DNA of 64,000 nucleotides from Halorhodospira halochloris. GTDB lineage: Bacteria > Pseudomonadota > Gammaproteobacteria > Nitrococcales > Halorhodospiraceae. This document shows positions 18,944-61,612 of the stretch, piece by piece. The stretch covers positions 2,334,501 through 2,398,500 of the forward strand of contig NZ_AP017372.2 of assembly GCF_002356555.2 (NCBI RefSeq), read 5' to 3'. The notes under the pieces are model-generated. The model did not search any database and was not told where the DNA came from. It saw nothing but the letters and a program-made list of their open reading frames with translations. Each line of letters opens with the position of its first letter. The stretch's first letter is position 1. Made by a program: the position numbers and the translations under genes.

Positions 18944-20374
18944 ATGACAGAGAGTTCAGCCCAAACCATAGCTAAATGGTTATTGTTATTACTAACATTT
19001 GCTTTAGCCTCGCCCGCAGCATTAGGCCAGATGCCGCAGGGTAGTGGCCCGGCAATGGATCAACCCCATACTACCCCCGAAGCACAGGCACGCACTCCTG
19101 GAGCGCCCTCCTCGACCGAAATGATTGGCGCCGGAACTCTGATGAACCCGTCGATATCGGTCATCATGGACGGTGTCTACGCTAACGAGTTCTCCGGCCA
19201 TGTCGGCGACCCCGGGGGCTTTGATATGGGGCACAGCCACGATCACGGTCACGGTCATGACCACGGGCTTGAAGATGGCTTTCAGCTGCGGGAGACCGAA
19301 TTCGCCTTTGAGGCCACGGTGGACCCCTACTTTGACGCATTCGCCATGCTGGTGATTGAGGACACCGACCACGTCGATCTTGAAGAGGCCTACTTCACCA
19401 CCCGTTCTCTGCCTTGGGGGCTGCAGATCAAGGGCGGACGTTTTCTCTCCGATGTCGGCTATATTAACGCCTTCCACCCCCACGACTGGGACTTTGTCGA
19501 TCGGCCTTTAGCCAATGAACATATTTTCGGTGACCACGGCCTGCAGGAGATCGGACTACAGCTCAATTGGGTGGCCCCTACTACCAGCTATCTTAAGTTG
19601 GGGCTTGAAAGCCTGCAGGGCGAAGGTGGCAGCTTTGCGCGCCATGAGGGCGATTATGCTGATTCTGCCGGCCCCCGCGTGACAACAGCATTCGCCAAAT
19701 GGGGTCCGGACCTGGGCTTCGATCACGCCGCGCAGTTTGGTGCCTCATTCGGCTATAATCGCGCTTGGCACGACGAAGTGGAGCACTCAACCGATAGCGA
19801 GATATGGGACGGTGATGCCTGGTTTGCCGGACTCGATGCGGTCTACAAATACACCCCGCCGCGCAGCTACCAGGGAGAAGGTCAACTGACCATACAAGGT
19901 GAGTGGTTCTACAGGCATATTGACACAGACTATCTCGTCTTTAGCCACTCTGAGGATAATAATAGTGAGGATAATAATAGTGATTATCCCTTTGGCGATG
20001 GTCTCGCAAATGCCGAGATCGATGAGTCGTCATCTTGGAAACAGGACGGCATGTACCTGCAAGCCGTCTACGGTATCGCACCGCGCTGGCGGGCAGGCGT
20101 CAGGGCCGAGGCGCTGGGCTTATTGGAGAACCGAGCTCATGTCGTCCATAGATCAGACCATGCAGATCACGACAATTTATACGATGATCTCGATACCTCC
20201 TACCGCTACTCGGCCTCGGTGACCCACTACCCGACCGAGTTCTCCTACATCCGCGGGCAGGTCAATTACTCCGATTTTGCATCTGATGACCCCAACGGCT
20301 CGAGTGAAGACTCCTGGCAATTCCTTGTGCAATACAACTTGAGCCTCGGCGTCCACGGAGCGCACCCGTTCTAA
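18944..20374 (+). CDS. His-rich outer-membrane porin-like protein linked to zinc uptake
   Basis: A 476-residue precursor with an N-terminal signal peptide (about residues 1-28), a Pro/Thr-rich segment, then a His-rich stretch ('HSHDHGHGHDHG', about 97-108) and a beta-barrel-like body ending in Phe ('GVHGAHPF'). There is no TonB-dependent plug, so it is more like a porin than a receptor. It lies 36 bases upstream of a zinc-type binding-protein gene; the His cluster suggests Zn binding at the surface or periplasmic mouth (inference). A perfect 15-base tandem duplication occurs in it. AGGGAG precedes the ATG. Confidence 0.7.
   Translation: MTESSAQTIAKWLLLLLTFALASPAALGQMPQGSGPAMDQPHTTPEAQARTPGAPSSTEMIGAGTLMNPSISVIMDGVYANEFSGHVGDPGGFDMGHSHDHGHGHDHGLEDGFQLRETEFAFEATVDPYFDAFAMLVIEDTDHVDLEEAYFTTRSLPWGLQIKGGRFLSDVGYINAFHPHDWDFVDRPLANEHIFGDHGLQEIGLQLNWVAPTTSYLKLGLESLQGEGGSFARHEGDYADSAGPRVTTAFAKWGPDLGFDHAAQFGASFGYNRAWHDEVEHSTDSEIWDGDAWFAGLDAVYKYTPPRSYQGEGQLTIQGEWFYRHIDTDYLVFSHSEDNNSEDNNSDYPFGDGLANAEIDESSSWKQDGMYLQAVYGIAPRWRAGVRAEALGLLENRAHVVHRSDHADHDNLYDDLDTSYRYSASVTHYPTEFSYIRGQVNYSDFASDDPNGSSEDSWQFLVQYNLSLGVHGAHPF
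19952..19981 (+). repeat. 15-bp perfect tandem duplication inside the porin gene
   Basis: GAGGATAATAATAGT occurs twice in direct succession (19952-19966, 19967-19981). It keeps the frame and gives SEDNNSEDNNS, probably in an extracellular loop. Such an in-frame short tandem can change copy number by slippage. Confidence 0.85.
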
Positions 20375-20410
20375 GCGCAGCAGCAGATCAACAGCGAACA
20401 GGAGCCAAAC

Positions 20411-21334
20411 ATGTCAAGCAGAACAACCCGCAAAGGCCGACTAATAGCCGCTCTGGTGGCAACAGCAACCGCCCTCCTCGGCCTTACCGCAACCAACGCC
20501 GCGGCGGATACCATCAAGGTTGCTGCCTCCACCACTAATATGGGCATGCTGGTTCGCGAAATCGGCGGTGAGCATGTCGAAACAACCACCATGGCACCAC
20601 CCGATCGCGACGCCCACTACCTCGAAGCACGCCCCTCAATGATGGCCGCAATGCGCGGTGCCGATCTGCTCGTCGCCGTCGGTGCCGAGCTGGAAGAGGG
20701 CTGGGTGCCGGCAGCCCTGCGCGGAGCCAACAATCCCGACATCATGCCCGGGCGCACCGGCTACTTCGAGGCCGCCGCCCAGGTCGAACTGATCGGTCAG
20801 ACCGGCCACGCCGACCGCGGCAGAGGTGATGTCCACCCCGCCGGCAACCCCCACGTCTATCTTGATCCGGTCCGCATGGCTGAAGTCGGCCACGCCCTCG
20901 CGCATCGCCTAAGCGAGTTGCGGTCGGCCCACAGCGACACCTTCCATAGCAACGCAGAGGCCTTTGAAAAAAGGGTCAAGGAGCGCATGCCCGAGTGGGA
21001 GGAGAAGGCCGCCCAATCCTCCGGGGTCGTGCTCTTTCACGAAAACATCGACTACCTCATGGATCGGTTAGACATCCAAATCCACGGCTTTATTGAACCG
21101 CTACCCGGCATCCCCCCCACTGCTCGCCACCTCCGCCAGCTGGTAAGAGACCTTGAGGGCAAAGAGGGGGTTACCATCTTCGCCGACTTCGAACCCAGCC
21201 GGGGCGCCGAATTCATCAAGGATCAGCTAGGCTGGGAGTACTACTCGCTGCCCACCCACGTCCCGGTCGGCGGTGATGCCGAGGATTACTTCGAGGTCAT
21301 CGATGCCTTGGTAGAGGCAGCAGCCTCTTCTTAA
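20411..21334 (+). CDS. znuA: zinc/manganese ABC transporter substrate-binding protein (ZnuA-like)
   Basis: A 307-residue cluster A-I binding protein with signal peptide (about residues 1-33, ending 'TATNAAAD'). Candidate metal ligands are visible: His in 'RDAHYLE', His in 'GNPHVYLDP', His in 'LFHENIDY' and the acidic residue in 'FADFEPS'. It lacks the internal His-rich loop of many ZnuA proteins; the preceding porin carries one instead. Zinc is the most likely metal, manganese cannot be excluded. It is separated from znuC by 254 bases with a terminator-like hairpin. Confidence 0.85.
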   Translation: MSSRTTRKGRLIAALVATATALLGLTATNAAADTIKVAASTTNMGMLVREIGGEHVETTTMAPPDRDAHYLEARPSMMAAMRGADLLVAVGAELEEGWVPAALRGANNPDIMPGRTGYFEAAAQVELIGQTGHADRGRGDVHPAGNPHVYLDPVRMAEVGHALAHRLSELRSAHSDTFHSNAEAFEKRVKERMPEWEEKAAQSSGVVLFHENIDYLMDRLDIQIHGFIEPLPGIPPTARHLRQLVRDLEGKEGVTIFADFEPSRGAEFIKDQLGWEYYSLPTHVPVGGDAEDYFEVIDALVEAAASS

Positions 21335-21363
21335 TCTCAGCCTTCAGGCAGGGGAAAGGAGCT

Positions 21364-21396
21364 ATATAGGGGCCAGCAACAAACTGGCCCCTATAT
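21364..21396 (+). terminator. perfect hairpin downstream of znuA
   Basis: ATATAGGGGCCAG (21364-21376) is perfectly complementary to CTGGCCCCTATAT (21384-21396) with a 7-base loop, followed by TTT only. It is a strong intrinsic-terminator-like hairpin that would end porin-znuA transcripts before znuC. Confidence 0.75.
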
Positions 21397-21457
21397 TTAC
21401 CGCCCCGAGCCTAAATTACGCCCGGGTCACCTCCTCTTGATCTTGATTTACTTGACT

Positions 21458-21476
21458 GCAAACGAGAATGGTTGTC
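21458..21476 (+). promoter_or_regulatory. possible Fur/Zur-family box upstream of znuC
   Basis: By hand alignment the 19-mer starting GCAAACGAGAATGG matches the Fur consensus at 12 of 19 positions. It lies 113 bases before the GTG of znuC, in the gap that separates znuA from znuCB. This is weak evidence; a Zur or Fur site is equally possible. Confidence 0.3.
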
Positions 21477-21588
21477 ACTCCATTCAAGGTTTGATAACGT
21501 TAGCCGCCAAGACATTGGCGTGGCTCGCCAGATCCCTGGCAACGCCCGAGATGCTGTCAGTTCAGCAAATACCAGAAGGTGCATAGCC

Positions 21589-22218
21589 GTGACCTCTTCC
21601 AATCCCTTCAACAAGCAACCTCTACTGAAGATAAAAGAATTACGGGCTGGATATAGCCAGCCAGTGGTTGGCCCTCTGACCGCCAACATAAACCCGGGTG
21701 AAGTAGTAGGATTCACTGGTCCGAACGGTTCCGGCAAAAGCACAATCATGCGGGTGCTGACCGGACAGGCAAGGGCCTTTAGCGGCCAGATTGCCCCAGC
21801 TCCGGGAATCAACATCGCCTGCCAAGCACAGAGCCCTTATCAGGGCGGTGAGCTGCCCCTGCGCGGCAAAGAGCTGCTGGCGCTTATGGGAGCCGAACCG
21901 GAAGTGCTGCCCCAGCCCCTGCACCATCTGCTCAACAGGCGCGTCGATAGGCTCAGCGGTGGCCAACGGCAAAGCTTGATCGTTTGGTCTGTTATCGGCC
22001 ATAGCGGTGAACTGATCCTGCTTGATGAACCTACCAACAACTTAGACTCCCAGGGCCGCGAGCTGCTCATAGAGGGATTGAACAACTTGTCAGAACACCG
22101 CGGAGCCTTGGTCATCAGCCATGATCATGAATTTGTCCGGCAGGTCTGCTGCTGTTCTATACCAATATCCCCCTCAGGCATACCTAGCTCAGCTCAGGAA
22201 ACAAGGCAAGCTGCTTAA
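21589..22218 (+). CDS. znuC: zinc/manganese ABC transporter ATPase (ZnuC-like), 3' end possibly frameshifted
   Basis: An ABC ATPase with Walker A 'GPNGSGKST', signature 'LSGGQRQ', Walker B 'LILLDEPTNNLD' and the switch His in 'VISHDHEF'. The frame opens at 21472, but GTG 21589, preceded by AGAAGGTG, gives a normal N-terminus. The C-terminus is odd: after 'EFVRQV' the frame reads CCCSIPISPSG-type sequence, whereas the next frame (22142-22246) reads a natural-looking helical tail containing 'YQYPPQAYLAQLRKQGK'. A +1 shift near 22141-22155 would restore it and make the gene overlap znuB. Confidence 0.75.
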   Translation: MTSSNPFNKQPLLKIKELRAGYSQPVVGPLTANINPGEVVGFTGPNGSGKSTIMRVLTGQARAFSGQIAPAPGINIACQAQSPYQGGELPLRGKELLALMGAEPEVLPQPLHHLLNRRVDRLSGGQRQSLIVWSVIGHSGELILLDEPTNNLDSQGRELLIEGLNNLSEHRGALVISHDHEFVRQVCCCSIPISPSGIPSSAQETRQAA

Positions 22219-23021
22219 TGGATCTGCTCTTCGACCCCCTATTTAGACTGCCCTTCTTTGCCGGCCTGACAGCCTCGGTAGTTGTCGCCATTATCGGTCT
22301 CTATCTAAGGCTGCGTGCCGAATGGCTCGCCGCTTTAGGGTTCGCCCATCTCGCCGGGGCAGGCGGGGTGGCTGGGGTACTACTCGGCGCGCCAGCGCTG
22401 GCAGCAGCGCTAGCTGCCAGCGCTTTAGCGGTGTTAATCAAGGGTCTATTAAGACGCAGCGGCAATGACGTGTACGCCTGGCTAATACTATTTGGCTGGG
22501 CGGCGATGTTAATCGGCGCCAGTCTCACCCACCATGCCAAGATACTAGGTGACGCCCTCGTCGATGGCCAACTCTATTTCGCCTCTACCGCTGAACTCTG
22601 GTCAACCCTGAGCATAGCGGCCGCGGCTACCATAATCCTGCCACTCATATCGCGCCGGCTGCTGCGCAACGAACTCTTCCCCGGCCACGACCAAGCCAAC
22701 GCCAAGTCGCTGTGGCCGGTTACCGTCGGCTTCGACCTGCTCGCCGCTGCCGCGATCGCCGTCACCGCCCTGGTCATGGGAGTAATGGCCGCGTTTGCGA
22801 TGGTGTTTATCCCCCCCTGGATTGCCTTTGCCTTGTCCGGCGGGTGGAGGCTTGCGGTTCTTTGGTCTGCCCTACTCGCTGCAGCTCTCTACACCGCGGC
22901 CTATGTTACCGCAATGCTCGCTGACATGCCGTTCGCGCCAGTTCTCGTAGCCTTGGCTGTAGCGATTGCGCCACTGCGTTTCCTGGCCTCTTTGAAGCCT
23001 ACAAACAGGGAGGCGGCTTGA
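22218..23021 (+). CDS. znuB: zinc/manganese ABC transporter permease (ZnuB-like)
   Basis: A 267-residue ABC-3 family permease with about eight hydrophobic segments, from 'PFFAGLTASVVVAIIGLYLRLRAEWLA' to 'VLVALAVAIAPLRF'. It starts one base inside the znuC stop (TAATG), so the two are coupled. Together with ZnuA and ZnuC it completes an inner-membrane metal importer. The family assignment is firm; the metal is inferred from the neighbouring proteins. Confidence 0.85.
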   Translation: MDLLFDPLFRLPFFAGLTASVVVAIIGLYLRLRAEWLAALGFAHLAGAGGVAGVLLGAPALAAALAASALAVLIKGLLRRSGNDVYAWLILFGWAAMLIGASLTHHAKILGDALVDGQLYFASTAELWSTLSIAAAATIILPLISRRLLRNELFPGHDQANAKSLWPVTVGFDLLAAAAIAVTALVMGVMAAFAMVFIPPWIAFALSGGWRLAVLWSALLAAALYTAAYVTAMLADMPFAPVLVALAVAIAPLRFLASLKPTNREAA

Positions 23022-23115: not shown

Positions 23116-24597
23116 TCAGGCAAAGTGATCGACCAGCCCTAAGCCTCTAGCAGAGCCCTCCTGTGCCGGGGTTTCGCCATCATCCCCCTCACCAACAGAA
23201 TCGACACCAACCTCCGAGGCATCGGCCAAGAGCTCAGCTTCATCCTGCTGACCCTCTTCTCCACCAGAGGAGATGTTTACCTCCACTTCCTCATTGCCTT
23301 GTTCGGCTAGCATCTGCCTAAGACGCTGCATATCTTCCTGGAGCGCTTCGCGGGTTGCAGCATTATGGGCAATTATATTGACTGTGGTGCGCTCCTCACC
23401 GACCGTTACCTTGACGTCCAAGGGCCCCATACCAGGTGGATTGAGCTGCAACCGCGCCTCTTTTACCCCTTCCTTGACCATCCAGTCTATGCGCTCGCCG
23501 ACCGCTGGGGTAAAGCCATTCTGTCCCACCTGCTGCGGGACATTAAGCTGAACTCCACCGCTCGAGCGCGCACTTGCCTCCAGGCCTTGAGCTGCGGCAA
23601 ACATGCTGCCGAAATCAGCGCGCCCCATGCTTGCCTCTTCACCACGCCGCGAGCCCCCTTCCGCGGCCTGTAGCAACGCCTCCATACTCGCCTGACGCTC
23701 ACCGCCGGATGACGAACCTCCGCTGTTGGCATTCTGCCCGGCAGGATCATCTCCGCTAGCTGCTGCCGAAGCACTCAGCGCCCCGCCTGCCCTTAACTCG
23801 CGGACAATCTGCTCCCCCTGGGAGTTTTGAGCGATGCTGCGCTCCCCGAAGCGCTCTGCGCCCTCACCACCGAAACCAATGCCGCCCATCGAACTGAATC
23901 CGGTTCCACCCGAGCTCATTGGATCGGCTTGCCAGCGCCCAGATATCTCTTTGAGCCTATCGGCATCGCTGACTATCTCGACTTCCAGGTGCTCTAGCTT
24001 GCCTGCTTCTTTCAGCTCGGCAACCCTCTCTTCTAGCGCTGCCCACAGGTCCTCGCCATCAAGCCCCTGTTCTTTGAGCTCTGCCAGCTCCTGTAGGAGC
24101 TCCTCACGCTCAGCCTTCAGTGCCTGCAGCTGCTCGGCATGATCTCCCTTACCGCTGAGGACCAAGCCCCGACCTAGGCCCTCGGCGCCTTCTTTTAGTA
24201 GTAGGGTATCGGCAGAGAAGGTTTTGCCTTCGCCATCACCCTCAGCCGACTTAGTTTCAGTGAATATTTCCCAGCCATGCTGCTGCAGCAGCTTGAGCTT
24301 ACCTATCTGGTCAGTGTCAAAAGAATCGCTGCCGCCCAGCTGACTAACCAGCTGACTAAACAGATCTTTCAGTTCTCCCTGAACCTTGTTGCCGTCATGC
24401 GGCAACCCTTTGCCGGTTTTGGCATGATCTATCAGTGCCGCAAACTGCTCTTTAGACACCCCCATATCCTTTAAAGCAGAGCCATCAAACAACGCATCCG
24501 CGAACAGCTTCCCCTCTGCGTCCCCCTGTTTGGCAGGCTTGGCGCCTTTTTTGCCGAGCATATCCAGATCCAGAGCAGCAAGTTCCATTGGCATCAT
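23116..24597 (-). CDS. fliK: flagellar hook-length control protein FliK
   Basis: FliK measures hook length and triggers the FlhB export switch. The 493-residue protein is low-complexity and coiled through most of its length (Glu/Leu-rich helix around residues 155-215, Gly/Ser-rich around 230-330). It ends in the conserved Flg_hook domain ('ARLQLNPPGMGPLDVKVTVGEERTTVNIIAHNAATREALQEDMQRLRQMLAEQG') plus an acidic tail. AGGAGA precedes the ATGATG start. It has its own sigma-54 promoter and is separated from fliJ by a repeat element. Confidence 0.92.
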   Translation of the reverse strand: MMPMELAALDLDMLGKKGAKPAKQGDAEGKLFADALFDGSALKDMGVSKEQFAALIDHAKTGKGLPHDGNKVQGELKDLFSQLVSQLGGSDSFDTDQIGKLKLLQQHGWEIFTETKSAEGDGEGKTFSADTLLLKEGAEGLGRGLVLSGKGDHAEQLQALKAEREELLQELAELKEQGLDGEDLWAALEERVAELKEAGKLEHLEVEIVSDADRLKEISGRWQADPMSSGGTGFSSMGGIGFGGEGAERFGERSIAQNSQGEQIVRELRAGGALSASAAASGDDPAGQNANSGGSSSGGERQASMEALLQAAEGGSRRGEEASMGRADFGSMFAAAQGLEASARSSGGVQLNVPQQVGQNGFTPAVGERIDWMVKEGVKEARLQLNPPGMGPLDVKVTVGEERTTVNIIAHNAATREALQEDMQRLRQMLAEQGNEEVEVNISSGGEEGQQDEAELLADASEVGVDSVGEGDDGETPAQEGSARGLGLVDHFA

Positions 24598-24641: not shown

Positions 24642-24657
24642 TGCAATATTCGCGCCA
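24642..24657 (-). promoter_or_regulatory. sigma-54 promoter of fliK
   Basis: On the minus strand TGGCGCG-AATA-TTGCA fits TGGCACG-N4-TTGCW with the required GG-N10-GC spacing. It is about 45 bases upstream of the fliK ATG. RpoN-dependent control of hook-stage genes is standard in polar-flagellum hierarchies. Confidence 0.75.
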
Positions 24658-24660
24658 TCA

Positions 24661-24734
24661 AATCTCCAGGGATGGATTCACGGCGTCCTCCACACCGGGG
24701 TAGTTGAGTGGCTCCGGGGGAGTTTTTGGAGATT
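24661..24734 (-). repeat. intergenic hairpin element between fliJ and fliK, sharing 29 bp with 61457-61485
   Basis: The element is bounded by AATCTCCA (24661-24668) and its complement TGGAGATT (24727-24734). It contains, on the minus strand (24694 down to 24666), a 29-base sequence identical to 61457-61485. It sits just upstream of the fliK sigma-54 promoter and may end fliJ transcription. I do not recognise a named family; it behaves like a REP/MITE-type intergenic repeat. Confidence 0.75.
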
Positions 24735-30936: not shown

Positions 30937-32457
30937 TCAGTTACCGTAGACGTAGATATTAGTCGAAGCGCTGCCCCGGTCGGGTACTTCGACGCCTTCT
31001 TGACGCATCCGCGCCAGCTTGTACCTCAACGTCCTGCTGCTTATACCAAGACGGGCTGCAGCCTCTTTGCGATTGCCGCCTACCGCAGTCAATGTCTCAA
31101 GGATTAGCCTATACTCGCGGGTCTTCAAACCCTCTTCAAGAGTCTGCCCGGAAGCTTCCTGACCTGACCGCTCCGGGGTATGTGGCTCCTCATATCCCGG
31201 AGCCACTGGAGCCGATTCAATTCCTTTAGGGATTGTTGGTTGCCACGGCTTAGCAGCATGATTGGGCTCAAACAGCGCCCCCGGGCCGCCTTCTACTGCA
31301 CGCACTGCCTCATTCGTCCAATCAGGTACCGACTGCGGCTGAGGCTCCAGCGAGACTGGATCGAATTGGATCGCACCACTATCGATTTTATCGCCATCGG
31401 CGAGTATCAATGCCCGTTGGACAACATTCTCCAATTCACGGACATTGCCGGGCCAAGTATGCTGAATGAGCTTGCGCTGCGCGTCGGAGGTGAACTCTAC
31501 CCCTGCTGCCCCACCCAATTGGGCGTACTTGAGGGCGAAGGACTGGGCCAAGGGGATAATGTCTGCCAGTCGATCACGTAGAGGGGGCAGATGTATCGGG
31601 AATACGTGGAGGCGATAGTAAAGATCCTCTCGGAATTTGCCCAACCGCACAAAATCACGTAAGTCGCGGTTGCTGCTCGCTAGTACCCTTACATCGAGCG
31701 GGATCGGTTTATGGCCACAGAGTCTCTCGATCTCCTTCTCTTGAAGGGCACGCAGCAGCTTTGCCTGCAACCCAAGGTCTATCTCGGAGACCTCGTCCAA
31801 CAGCAGGGTTCCGCCCTGGGCCTGCTCAAACTTGCCGGAGTGGGAGCGGTTCGCCCCGGTAAAAGCGCCTTTTTCAAAGCCAAACAGCAGAGCCTCCAGC
31901 ATATTCTCCGGGATCGCTGCACAGTTGACAGCCACAAAAGGCCCATCAGCCCGGTGGGAGCGCTCGTGTATGTAGCGGGCAAAGACTTCTTTGCCCGTGC
32001 CGGACTCACCAGTCAATAAAACCGTCACATCTTTTCCGGCAACTCTTTGCGCAAGTGCGATAAGTTGCCGACTGCTCTTATCTTCGGCTATCAGCTCCGG
32101 GCCGTTGTCAGTCACTCGGGAGACGGCTGCCGCCAACTCATCTGCCGCCGATTGCTCGGCCACAAAATCTGCCGCGCCATCACGCATCGCGGCCACTGCG
32201 ACTCCTACTTCTGCTGTTGCAGAGACCAAGATAACCGGGGGGGCCATCGGGTGCCTGACAACCGATCGCCAGTCACTACCATCACCAGCACCTTCGCAGT
32301 AGACAATAGCCGCGAGGCCACCCTGATCAAGCATTCTGTGCGCGGCATCAGGACCCTCAGCCGCAACGGTGGTAAAGCCAGCCCTGGCCAAGTGTCCGAG
32401 TTGCTCGGAACGTCTGTCCGCATCGCGGGATACAACGAGCACACGCTGCTGACCCAT
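30937..32457 (-). CDS. flrC: FlrC/FleR-type sigma-54 activator with degenerate receiver
   Basis: A 506-residue enhancer-binding protein. The AAA+ domain is complete: Walker A 'GESGTGKE' (150-157), the sigma-54 contact 'GAFTGA' (197-202), Walker B 'LLLDEVSE'. The C-terminal Fis-type helix-turn-helix ('[25 protein letters not shown]') and the fliE neighbour mark it as FlrC/FleR, not FleQ. The receiver fold (1-115) is degenerate: the phosphoacceptor position lies at Cys54/Glu55 and the switch Lys is Glu101. ATG 32457 with GGGGGAG was chosen over the longer frame to 32553. No cognate kinase gene adjoins. Confidence 0.92.
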
Positions 32458-32752
32458 GTTTCTCCCCCTAAGCAATGAATCGCCTACTGCGGCCGCTGCC
32501 GCCACACCGCAGGAATGGCGCCGCGCTCGCATCCGCACCTGTACATCAATCAATAACAGGCGGGAGCACTACGGCCGGCCACAAAGCACCGAACGAGATT
32601 AGTTTACGGGGAAGGGAGTGATCAGTCAAAGCCGCGTGTACAAAAAAGAAACAACAACGCAGCCAGAAATCACGTGCATGGAATGTTGTTTTGGCTTTAA
32701 CCTGGTGACCCAGATCCACTAAATGCCACGATTAACCATTAGGAATTTTCTA
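32458..32752. other. 295-bp gap between flrC and fliT where fleQ and flrB usually lie
   Basis: No plausible gene is present. In Pseudomonas the order is fliD-fliS-fliT-fleQ-fleS-fleR-fliE; here fliT and flrC face each other across this gap. A weak sigma-54-like element (CGGCGCC-ATTC-CTGCG, minus strand, 32508-32523) lies about 50 bases before flrC and keeps GG-N10-GC, but deviates elsewhere. Confidence 0.6.
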
Positions 32753-33613: not shown

Positions 33614-33640
33614 CTATCGGCACATACAACAAAAACTTTA
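33614..33640 (-). promoter_or_regulatory. sigma-28 (FliA) promoter of fliS-fliT
   Basis: On the minus strand TAAAGTTT (33633-33640), 11 bases, GCCGATAG (33614-33621). The -35 matches TAAAGTTT 8/8, the -10 matches GCCGATAA 7/8. The predicted start of transcription is about 63 bases before the fliS ATG. Confidence 0.9.
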
Positions 33641-37315: not shown

Positions 37316-37342
37316 ATATCGGCGCTCTTCGGCAAAGCTTTA
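37316..37342 (-). promoter_or_regulatory. sigma-28 (FliA) promoter of flagellin 1
   Basis: On the minus strand TAAAGCTT (37335-37342), 11 bases, GCCGATAT (37316-37323). The spacer contains TTGCCG, as does the flagellin 2 promoter spacer, and another CGGCAA lies directly upstream (37348-37353). The transcript start is about 90 bases before the ATG. Confidence 0.93.
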
Positions 37343-37494
37343 GTCTTTTGCCGCGCTGCTGATCCAGCGGTAAAAATGTCTCTGACGGGTCTGGCTAATT
37401 CTTAATAATCCTTCCCCTTACAATAGTTTGTGATGACTCACCGGAACAACGGACACAACTTGAGAGACGGATACTTGTTTAGCCCTAAGTCGAT

Positions 37495-37535: not shown

Positions 37536-38948
37536 TTACTGCAGTAGCGTCAACACGTTCTGCGGCGACTGGTTGGCCTGTGCCAGCACCGAGGTTCCAG
37601 CCTGCTGCAGCACATCTGCACGCGTCATTTCAGCACTCTCGCGGGCGAAATCAGCATCCAGGATGCGTGAACGAGAAGCCTCCATGTTTTCCGAGACGTT
37701 CTGCAGATTGCTGGTAGTAGCCTCGAAGCGGTTCTGGATCGCACCGAGGTCAGCTCGCGCCTCGTTTATCCGCCCCAGGGCAAAGTCCACGGTACGGATG
37801 GCGTTATCCGCATCGCCCCTGCTAGCCACTGAAAGCGCATCGGGACCACTTACCCGGCTAGACTCAACCTCTAAGACCTCGCCATCTTGATCGGCCAGAC
37901 CCAACTCGGTCATAAGATCGTTGTCACCGGTGACCTGCACCGGCCGCTCAATGTCAGCGGCAAGCTGAATTCCCCGCTCGAAGCGAACGTGCTCGCCCTC
38001 GTCCATACCGAGAGGATTATTGTCCCCCGCTTCGATACGGAAGTCGGACTCGGAGGCGAACTGCACTGTCCCCTCATCCGTCACTCTTGCCCGAACCCCG
38101 GTCTCCTGTGAGTTGCGGTTTACCTCATCAACAAACTCGTTAATGTCAGCACCTTCGCTGACGCCAACATGCTGGCCGTTGATCTCAATGCTGGCGCCTT
38201 CTTCCCCTGGAGTTTCGTAATCAAACTCCTGAGACTCAGCACGATCGGCCCTAAAGGCTTGCACACCGGTCGACCCAGCAACGGCATTTACCCTATCGGC
38301 CACGTCAGATACCTCACGCACGCCATCCATGGAGACTTCGACACCGTTGACACTGATACTGCCCTCAATATCCAGATCACCGTAGGCGCCATCTTCGCCG
38401 ATTTCACGCTCTATCGCGCGACCATCCATGATCTCGGCACCAAGGTTGTGGCCGCGCACATCAAGGCCGGATACGTTGATGCTCTGGGCCCGGTTGGCAC
38501 CAACCTGGAAGACCAGCTCTTGCAAGGAACCGTCGAGGACGTTCTGGTTGTTAAACTGAGTCGTTTGAGCAATACGATCGATCTCCATGACCGCTTGCTG
38601 AACCTCAGCATCCAGAGCCCGCCGATCCTCTGCAGTGTTGGTGTCGTTTGCCGACTGAACCGCCAGCTCACGGACCCGCTGCAGCAGGTTACCCATCTCT
38701 TCCATCGCCCCTTCTGCGGTCTGGGCGAAAGAGATGCCGTCGTTAGCGTTCCGTTCGGCCTGGTTAAGGCCGTTTACCTGCGAAGTAAAGCGCTCACTGA
38801 TGGCCAAGCCGGCAGCATCATCTGAAGCAGAATTGATCCGCTTACCTGATGACAGGCGCTCTAGAGCCTGCTGTTGATCTGCCTGAGTGGCATTAAGGTG
38901 CCGCTGCGCATTCAGTGAAGCGACATTTGTATTGATAACCTGTCCCAT
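37536..38948 (-). CDS. fliC: flagellin 2
   Basis: A 470-residue flagellin, paralogue of flagellin 1 at 35717. The conserved ends are nearly identical ('MGQVINTNVASLNAQRHLNA', 'ERLSSGKRINSASDDAAGLAISERF' and 'VLQQAGTSVLAQANQSPQ'), the acidic centre (about 190-370) is more divergent and 30 residues shorter. It has its own sigma-28 promoter and lies first in the flagellin block. Confidence 0.97.
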   Translation of the reverse strand: MGQVINTNVASLNAQRHLNATQADQQQALERLSSGKRINSASDDAAGLAISERFTSQVNGLNQAERNANDGISFAQTAEGAMEEMGNLLQRVRELAVQSANDTNTAEDRRALDAEVQQAVMEIDRIAQTTQFNNQNVLDGSLQELVFQVGANRAQSINVSGLDVRGHNLGAEIMDGRAIEREIGEDGAYGDLDIEGSISVNGVEVSMDGVREVSDVADRVNAVAGSTGVQAFRADRAESQEFDYETPGEEGASIEINGQHVGVSEGADINEFVDEVNRNSQETGVRARVTDEGTVQFASESDFRIEAGDNNPLGMDEGEHVRFERGIQLAADIERPVQVTGDNDLMTELGLADQDGEVLEVESSRVSGPDALSVASRGDADNAIRTVDFALGRINEARADLGAIQNRFEATTSNLQNVSENMEASRSRILDADFARESAEMTRADVLQQAGTSVLAQANQSPQNVLTLLQ

Positions 38949-38970
38949 AGCTCTTCTCCTCTTACTTTAT

Positions 38971-39372
38971 TTGCCGAGAAGGCCAGGGCGGCAGCCACTT
39001 GCCGCCGTCTTGAACCCTACTCTGCCTTCATAACCCATATCGGCCCTTTGCGGCAATCCTTTACCCCCTTAAGCGGCAAAAATTTTCCGCTCTACGGTCG
39101 CCCTTGGTTCCTGTCTTGGGCGCGTCGCTTGAGGCCTTAGCCTGCGAAATCAAGGCTTCCAGCCAAACCCACGACTCGGGTGCCACTATCTTGCCACCAC
39201 TTGGCGGCAAAATAAAACCGTTGCGGCAAAAAAAGGCAAATTTTTTCCGTAGTCGGCAACGCGCCGCCATATGACGAGTGTGCGTGGACTAAGGTATATC
39301 GGAAAAAACTGCGCAAGACACGGCATTGCAGCCCAACAACCGCTTCTGCCATGAGGTAATCATCTGCGGCAA
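38971..39372. repeat. cluster of eight TTGCCG/CGGCAA hexamers upstream of flagellin 2
   Basis: Positions: 38971, 38999 (TTGCCG); 39052, 39075, 39205, 39224, 39254, 39367 (CGGCAA). By chance a 402-base stretch should hold about 0.2. The same hexamer is found twice at the flagellin 1 promoter (37330, 37348) and three times upstream of flgB (53325, 53335, 53344). It is a candidate binding site for a flagellar regulator. Confidence 0.7.
39038..39064 (-). promoter_or_regulatory. sigma-28 (FliA) promoter of flagellin 2
   Basis: On the minus strand TAAAGGAT (39057-39064), 11 bases, GCCGATAT (39038-39045). The spacer contains TTGCCG at the same place as in the flagellin 1 promoter. The predicted transcript start is about 83 bases before the ATG. 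Confidence 0.93.
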
Positions 39373-53256: not shown

Positions 53257-53272
53257 TGCAGATTACATGCCA
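53257..53272 (-). promoter_or_regulatory. sigma-54 promoter of the flgB operon
   Basis: On the minus strand TGGCATG-TAAT-CTGCA fits TGGCACG-N4-TTGCW with exact GG-N10-GC spacing, 40-55 bases before the flgB ATG. Three CGGCAA/TTGCCG copies lie 50-95 bases further upstream, the usual position of an enhancer for a sigma-54 activator. Confidence 0.8.
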
Positions 53273-53323: not shown

Positions 53324-53349
53324 GCGGCAAATTTTTGCCGTCTTTGCCG
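53324..53349. promoter_or_regulatory. TTTGCCG inverted/direct repeat upstream of flgB
   Basis: CGGCAAA (53325-53331) and TTTGCCG (53334-53340) form a perfect 7-2-7 inverted repeat; a third TTTGCCG follows in direct orientation (53343-53349). This arrangement looks like a dimer or multimer protein-binding site, placed where the flgB enhancer is expected. Confidence 0.55.
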
Positions 53350-53453
53350 GCACTCTGTTGCCAATCAGCGGGTAGCGGCAGACCCTAGCGCGCCAAGGCG
53401 CCTGTCAGCGAACCGCGCCGCTAACCGAATTTATGCCCGAGTAGCCCGCCGCC

Positions 53454-56192: not shown

Positions 56193-56219
56193 TTAAGTTC
56201 CAGCAGCTGGTGCCGATAA
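56193..56219 (+). promoter_or_regulatory. sigma-28 (FliA) promoter of flgM
   Basis: TTAAGTTC (56193-56200), 11 bases, GCCGATAA (56212-56219). The -10 is a perfect match, the -35 6/8. The transcript would start about 77 bases before the flgM ATG and gives the classical FliA-FlgM feedback. Confidence 0.88.
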
Positions 56220-61437: not shown

Positions 61438-61543
61438 GCGCCATTAGCTGCCCCGATGTGGAGGACGCCGTGAATCCATCCCTGGCGGCCCCATGGCGCT
61501 ATCCCTGGCGCCAAGACGTCCACATCGGGGCAGCTAATGGCGC
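61438..61543. repeat. 106-base hairpin element with 25-bp perfect outer stem
   Basis: The arms 61438-61462 and 61519-61543 are perfect 25-base complements. Inside are further GGCGCC-type pairings. Positions 61457-61485 are identical, in opposite orientation, to 24694-24666 between fliJ and fliK. It lies between glpD and the ABC gene and may also terminate glpD. It is most like a REP/MITE-type mobile palindrome; no transposase is present. Confidence 0.85.

Positions 61544-61567: not shown

Positions 61568-61612
<45 letters not shown>

Follow-up and report, generated by a model that had tools for sequence, protein, structure and literature searches.

A candidate FlrC-type palindromic box at hook-stage and flagellin genes of Halorhodospira halochloris

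FlrC-type regulators in described systems and in H. halochloris

In Vibrio, the flagellar regulator FlrC typically has its sites downstream, and these nevertheless work as true enhancers; genes of the FlrC class include fliK-flhB and flaA (PMC6504787). For the P. aeruginosa homologue FleR, recognition of the flgBCDE and fliC promoters has been reported, as has support of swimming largely without FleS (PMC8335546). A further member of this group of sigma-54 activators, FlbD, represses fliF via an ftr site (PMC3930126).

The DNA analyzed here is a window of 64,000 nt from the genome of Halorhodospira halochloris, which is a single contig of 2,834,560 bases (2.83 Mb) with 56% G+C. The system resembles that of Vibrio cholerae, where flaA, flgK, flgB, and fliK form class III, in having a homologous activator and sigma-54 targets, a putative enhancer downstream of the fliK promoter, and a flagellin among the likely targets (PMC6504787). 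Unlike in V. cholerae, the flagellin site in H. halochloris adjoins a sigma-28 promoter, no clear FlrA is present, FlrC lacks the phospho-Asp, and in relatives no FlrB is encoded between flrA and flrC. The reach of a homologue to a flagellin promoter (fliC) as well as to flgBCDE has a reported parallel in P. aeruginosa FleR (PMC8335546). The likeness to Caulobacter FlbD concerns the protein, for which FlbD is the best NCBIfam model; unlike H. halochloris, Caulobacter has no sigma-28 flagellins.

The FlrC of H. halochloris carries the AAA+ domain and helix-turn-helix of FlrC/FleR/FlbD activators, matches Pfam Sigma54_activat and HTH_8, and scores 421 bits against the NCBIfam FlbD model, which is below the cutoff of that model. 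Its gene lies in the flagellar cluster directly before fliE-fliF, and FlrC-type sites stand near sigma-54 promoters of rod, hook, or fliK genes, as in this class. No match to Pfam Response_reg was found in the protein, so that the phosphorylatable receiver of FlrC/FleR proper is not evident; as for the partner kinase (FlrB/FleS), the interval between flrA and flrC in the relative G007 has no room for flrB. In the FlrC alignment, the receiver phospho-Asp is missing across the order, but is kept in Shewanella, Marinobacter, and others. Most family members encode a FlrA with a FleQ domain beside flrC. In H. halochloris and G002, no clear FlrA was found, only a weak paralogue elsewhere in the genome, with FleQ domain scores of 27 and 24 bits versus 58-78 for flrC-adjacent copies and a best FlrA match of ~43%.

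The hexamer and the spaced dyad

The initial annotation drew attention to TTGCCG/CGGCAA hexamers at the flagellin and flgB promoters, and every copy that it listed was located: eight within 38971-39372 upstream of flagellin 2 (38971 and 38999 on the + strand; 39051, 39074, 39205, 39224, 39254, and 39367 on the - strand), two at flagellin 1 (37330, -; 37348, +), and three on the flgB side (53325, -; 53335, +; 53344, +). A lone TTGCCG is weak evidence, as it is too common to inform: the pair occurs 103 times in the window, ranking about fourth of 2080 hexamer pairs, against an expectation of 93.9 from a fourth-order Markov model. Hexamer counts alone were dropped as evidence for this reason. The flagellin 2 cluster is denser than any other, in that eight copies per 402 bases are matched by no other non-homopolymer hexamer in the window. 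Background density was taken from 400 kb of the same genome (20 sampled stretches of 20 kb), giving 0.86 hexamers per kb in intergenic and 1.46 per kb in coding DNA. At the intergenic rate, the eight hexamers in 560 bases at flagellin 2 have a P of ~4.5e-8, exceeding the density of other intergenic DNA, a comparison that the initial annotation had proposed. In a uniform-rate simulation, a single cluster of this kind at any place in the genome had a P of 0.007. That a common hexamer is clustered here through chance, a reading that draws on the rank of TTGCCG among the commonest hexamers of the window, is contradicted by this density, by the dyad spacing, and by the conservation in relatives, and we regard it as extremely improbable.

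The hexamer had been treated as the meaningful unit, but a gap scan replaced it with a dyad, CGGCAA-N4-TTGCCG, accompanied by phased extra half-sites. Among 62 FlrC loci from outside the family (1.09 Mb; mostly gammaproteobacteria, with one alphaproteobacterial MAG), the N4 gap had 16 hits, no other gap had more than three, and none of 89 other permuted hexamers gave more than two. In the family loci, a set whose counts are slightly inflated by some overlapping stretches, N4 had 10 hits and no other gap more than four. Same-orientation repeats at 21 bp numbered 13 outside the family and 10 within it, compared to none in the 400 kb of own background, and 13 of 26 dyads had a strong sigma-54 match no more than 300 bp away (8.6% at random). 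No dyad was seen in many AT-rich FlrC loci.

In the 2.83-Mb genome, the exact dyad occurs twice, upstream of flgB and inside fliK, in both cases adjoining strong flagellar sigma-54 matches that are among the best of the window by a hand-weighted consensus score. With up to one mismatch, the dyad CGGMAAWWWWTTKCCG, a pattern picked after the flagellin 2 and flgB sites had been seen, occurs three times in the window (twice at flagellin 2, once at flgB) versus 0.02 expected. One-mismatch dyads are non-specific genome-wide, with 28 occurrences versus 14 for a control pattern. We read the hexamers as half-sites of a single palindromic switch whose most likely binder is FlrC; the full box is often repeated with a phasing of ~21 bp, or two turns. 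In relatives, further boxes lie between fliP and fliQ and upstream of flrC, the latter accompanied by a sigma-54 promoter; in H. halochloris, unlike in these relatives, no box was found upstream of flrC or fliQ. The region upstream of flrC in H. halochloris (32458-32752) is also missing the sigma-54 promoter of relatives, and flrC may be transcribed from the fliS sigma-28 promoter (33614-33640), which would make FlrC late. The features of the window are collected in Table 1.

Table 1. Sites, promoters, and genes discussed in the text, in window coordinates
Feature	Position	Strand	Remarks
Half-site TTGCCG, 21 bp from the TTGCCG arm of the fliK dyad	24389..24394	+	Located in sequence
FlrC-type dyad CGGCAACCCTTTGCCG inside fliK, putative downstream enhancer	24400..24415	.	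Exact, one of two in genome
Sigma-54 promoter TGGCGCGAATATTGCA of fliK	24642..24657	-	Best match in window; equivalents in three relatives
flrC, sigma-54 activator, candidate binder, degenerate receiver	30937..32457	-	GAFTGA AAA+ domain, Fis-type HTH
Sigma-28 promoter of flagellin 1, spacer hexamer 37330-37335	37316..37342	-	Hexamer not conserved in relatives
Hexamer upstream of flagellin 1 promoter	37348..37353	+	Not conserved in relatives
Flagellin 2 gene	37536..38948	-	
Hexamer in flagellin 2 leader, near ribosome-binding site	38971..38976	+	
Leader hairpin GGCGGCAAGTGGCTGCCGCC of flagellin 2, contains hexamer 38999-39004	38988..39007	-	Most pairs kept in 7/7 sequences, no covariation
Sigma-28 promoter TAAAGGATTGCCGCAAAGGGCCGATAT of flagellin 2	39037..39063	-	Conserved
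Half-site TTGCCG in flagellin 2 sigma-28 spacer, 23 bp from dyad half-site	39051..39056	-	
FlrC-type dyad (sense CGGAAAATTTTTGCCG), ~10 bases before flagellin 2 sigma-28 -35	39074..39089	.	11/12 positions
Half-sites 39205, 39224, 39254 around second flagellin 2 dyad	39205..39259	-	Located in sequence
Second, weaker dyad AGGCAAATTTTTTCCG upstream of flagellin 2	39234..39249	.	10/12 positions
Outlying hexamer	39367..39372	-	No conserved counterpart seen in relatives; probably incidental
Sigma-54 promoter TGGCATGTAATCTGCA of flgB	53257..53272	-	Second-best match in window, tied with + strand match at 24540
FlrC-type dyad CGGCAAATTTTTGCCG upstream of flgB	53325..53340	.	Exact, one of two in genome
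Extra half-site TTGCCG beside flgB dyad	53344..53349	+	Third half-site in many relatives too
Weaker second dyad CGGCACTCTGTTGCCA, 23 bp from first flgB dyad	53348..53363	.	10/12 positions

The sigma-54 promoters of flgB and fliK

Upstream of flgB, the sequence CGGCAAA-TT-TTTGCCG at 53325-53340 forms the perfect 7-2-7 inverted repeat that had been claimed. Of the relatives with a close FlrC, 17 had readable DNA upstream of flgB, and every one of these keeps the flgB dyad (12 exact, three at 11/12, and two at 10/12 positions), although these relatives share ancestry and, as with the other conservation counts given here, do not represent independent events. Strong sigma-54 matches occupy the corresponding place in relatives. 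In G014, where the FlrC recognition helix differs, the flgB dyad was not found, an absence case of one genome. These observations are consistent with FlrC binding to a box ~60 bp upstream of the flgB promoter, from which it would act through sigma-54 as a classical enhancer-bound activator.

A third FlrC-type target, overlooked in the initial annotation, is fliK. In H. halochloris, a single exact dyad lies at +182, while in G006, G007, and G008 the sigma-54 promoter lies at ~-60 and two dyads, spaced 21 bp, at ~+190 and ~+215. In several other gammaproteobacteria, too, a dyad follows a strong sigma-54 match at a distance of 235-420 bp downstream, in the stretch from fliJ to the conserved part of fliK. 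Here FlrC would act as an enhancer-bound activator of a sigma-54 promoter from an intragenic box ~230 bp downstream of it. Most likely, an FlrC-type box serves rod/hook and hook-length genes in H. halochloris as in other gammaproteobacteria. The neighborhood of fliK has two further features. Between fliL and fliK stand genes for a zinc-type ABC transporter (18944-23021), as they do in relatives, and a stretch near 24660-24700, TGTGGAGGACGCCGTGAATCCATCCCTGG, resembles an uninterrupted run of 45 G at 61568-61612 that lies beside a long inverted repeat (~61440-61540); the two stretches are possibly a repeat family or an assembly artefact.

We infer that FlrC, the first candidate of the initial annotation, is the best candidate binder of the box. 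It is a better candidate than FlrA because the boxes persist in H. halochloris and G002, which have no clear FlrA. The dyad could instead be bound by another regulator, such as an FlrA/FleQ-type protein or an unrelated repressor, given that the binder is assigned indirectly and that an FlrA gene adjoins flrC in most relatives; however, the retention of the boxes in these two genomes speaks against this possibility, as do targets that fit the FlrC class III, and we consider it improbable.

The flagellin promoters

Each of the eight family members with a readable flagellin 2 upstream region (G000, G002, G003, G006, G007, G008, G009, and G011) carries a dyad there that matches 10-12 of 12 positions, and the half-site in the sigma-28 spacer is an exact TTGCCG in seven of the eight, with TTTCCG in G003. 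The same layout, with a weaker dyad, is present at one flagellin of G010. Both this pair of sites and the flgB dyad are therefore kept in relatives, which is the conservation that the initial annotation had asked about. Relatives also have same-orientation TTGCCG arrays upstream of flagellin 2, and among the copies upstream of its promoter one orientation predominates (36 versus 8). As to the cluster as a whole, its description as a promoter array applies to part of it, since 38971 and 38999 are leader copies, downstream of the sigma-28 promoter, and may not be protein sites. A reading of the array as the control region of the neighboring TonB receptor gene was rejected because the array stays with the flagellin while the receptor neighbor varies, being differently oriented in relatives or absent near the G003 flagellin.

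Within the leader, hexamer 38999 supplies one arm of a hairpin that is enclosed by a GAAGGC/GCCTTC pairing; as this pairing is invariant in 7/7 sequences, it gives no covariation evidence. The hairpin is well conserved but shows no compensatory changes, and we rejected it as a proven RNA switch. The leader (38950-39045) combines this pairing with a CTTCTC stretch that might pair with the ribosome-binding site and is a candidate for translational control.

As had been noted, TTGCCG stands in the spacer of both flagellin sigma-28 promoters (39037-39063 and 37316-37342), and it is lacking from the spacers of the best fliS match (33614-33640) and of the match after flgA (56193-56219, presumed flgM). 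At flagellin 1, the spacer letters vary among relatives, and the hexamers there are unsupported as regulator sites. The proposal of one regulator for hook and filament genes is accordingly supported for the hook-stage operon and flagellin 2, but does not extend to the flagellin 1 copies, which are not conserved.

At flagellin 2, the core of the boxes is A/T-rich and a C-to-A change is frequent, which leaves room for an UP element or a different factor. If the dyad served chiefly as an UP element or as bent DNA for the sigma-28 polymerase, with the hexamers as promoter constraints, an A/T-rich core directly upstream of the -35, as seen in nearly all relatives, would fit. However, conservation extends to the flanking GG and CCG and to the spacer TTGCCG, none of which flagellin 1 sigma-28 promoters have, and we consider this explanation improbable.

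Taking the loci together, we think it probable that FlrC binds these boxes, activating flgB and fliK through sigma-54 and modulating flagellin 2 directly. At flagellin 2, the box before the -35 and the half-site between -35 and -10 would place FlrC in direct contact with the sigma-28 promoter. Lying across its upstream edge and spacer, FlrC would compete with the sigma-28 polymerase and hold it back at the hook stage, so that flagellin 2 is delayed and timed against hook completion. Such a delay is the likeliest effect, and we rate its prospects as about evenly balanced; co-activation appears somewhat unlikely, and little direct effect of FlrC less likely again. The repression of fliF by FlbD provides a precedent for FlrC delaying flagellin 2 (PMC3930126).

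An alternative has FlrC activating flgB and fliK and also co-activating flagellin 2, either by recruiting or stabilizing the sigma-28 polymerase or through a hidden sigma-54 promoter. The position of the box near -52 suits activation, and at 39181-39196 the sequence TGGCAAGATAGTGGCA forms a weak sigma-54-like site. A half-site within the spacer is more typical of repression, which counts against co-activation, and other family members do not have a sigma-54-like site of TGGCAAGATAGTGGCA quality. We rejected 39181-39196 as a sigma-54 promoter for flagellin 2, as it has no match in relatives. Vibrio flaA is FlrC- and sigma-54-dependent, in line with co-activation (PMC6504787). On balance, we view this alternative as unlikely.

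Returning to the delay of flagellin 2 by FlrC, the unusual feature is most likely that one flagellin gene, out of two, has an FlrC-type box as part of its late (sigma-28) promoter. We tentatively propose, with slightly more doubt than confidence, that a Halorhodospiraceae FlrC without a working phosphorylation site has two modes, serving as a sigma-54 enhancer-bound activator of hook genes and as a direct regulator of a sigma-28 flagellin promoter, the latter constituting a second hook-filament checkpoint besides FlgM. The results provide a concrete candidate box to which FlrC-type flagellar regulators would bind; it is common to distant gammaproteobacteria and includes a putative enhancer inside fliK. 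They also indicate that flagellar control persists in species whose FlrC no longer has a phospho-site, two of which also have no clear FlrA, and they predict that in one family FlrC would cross the sigma-54/sigma-28 divide to reach one flagellin.
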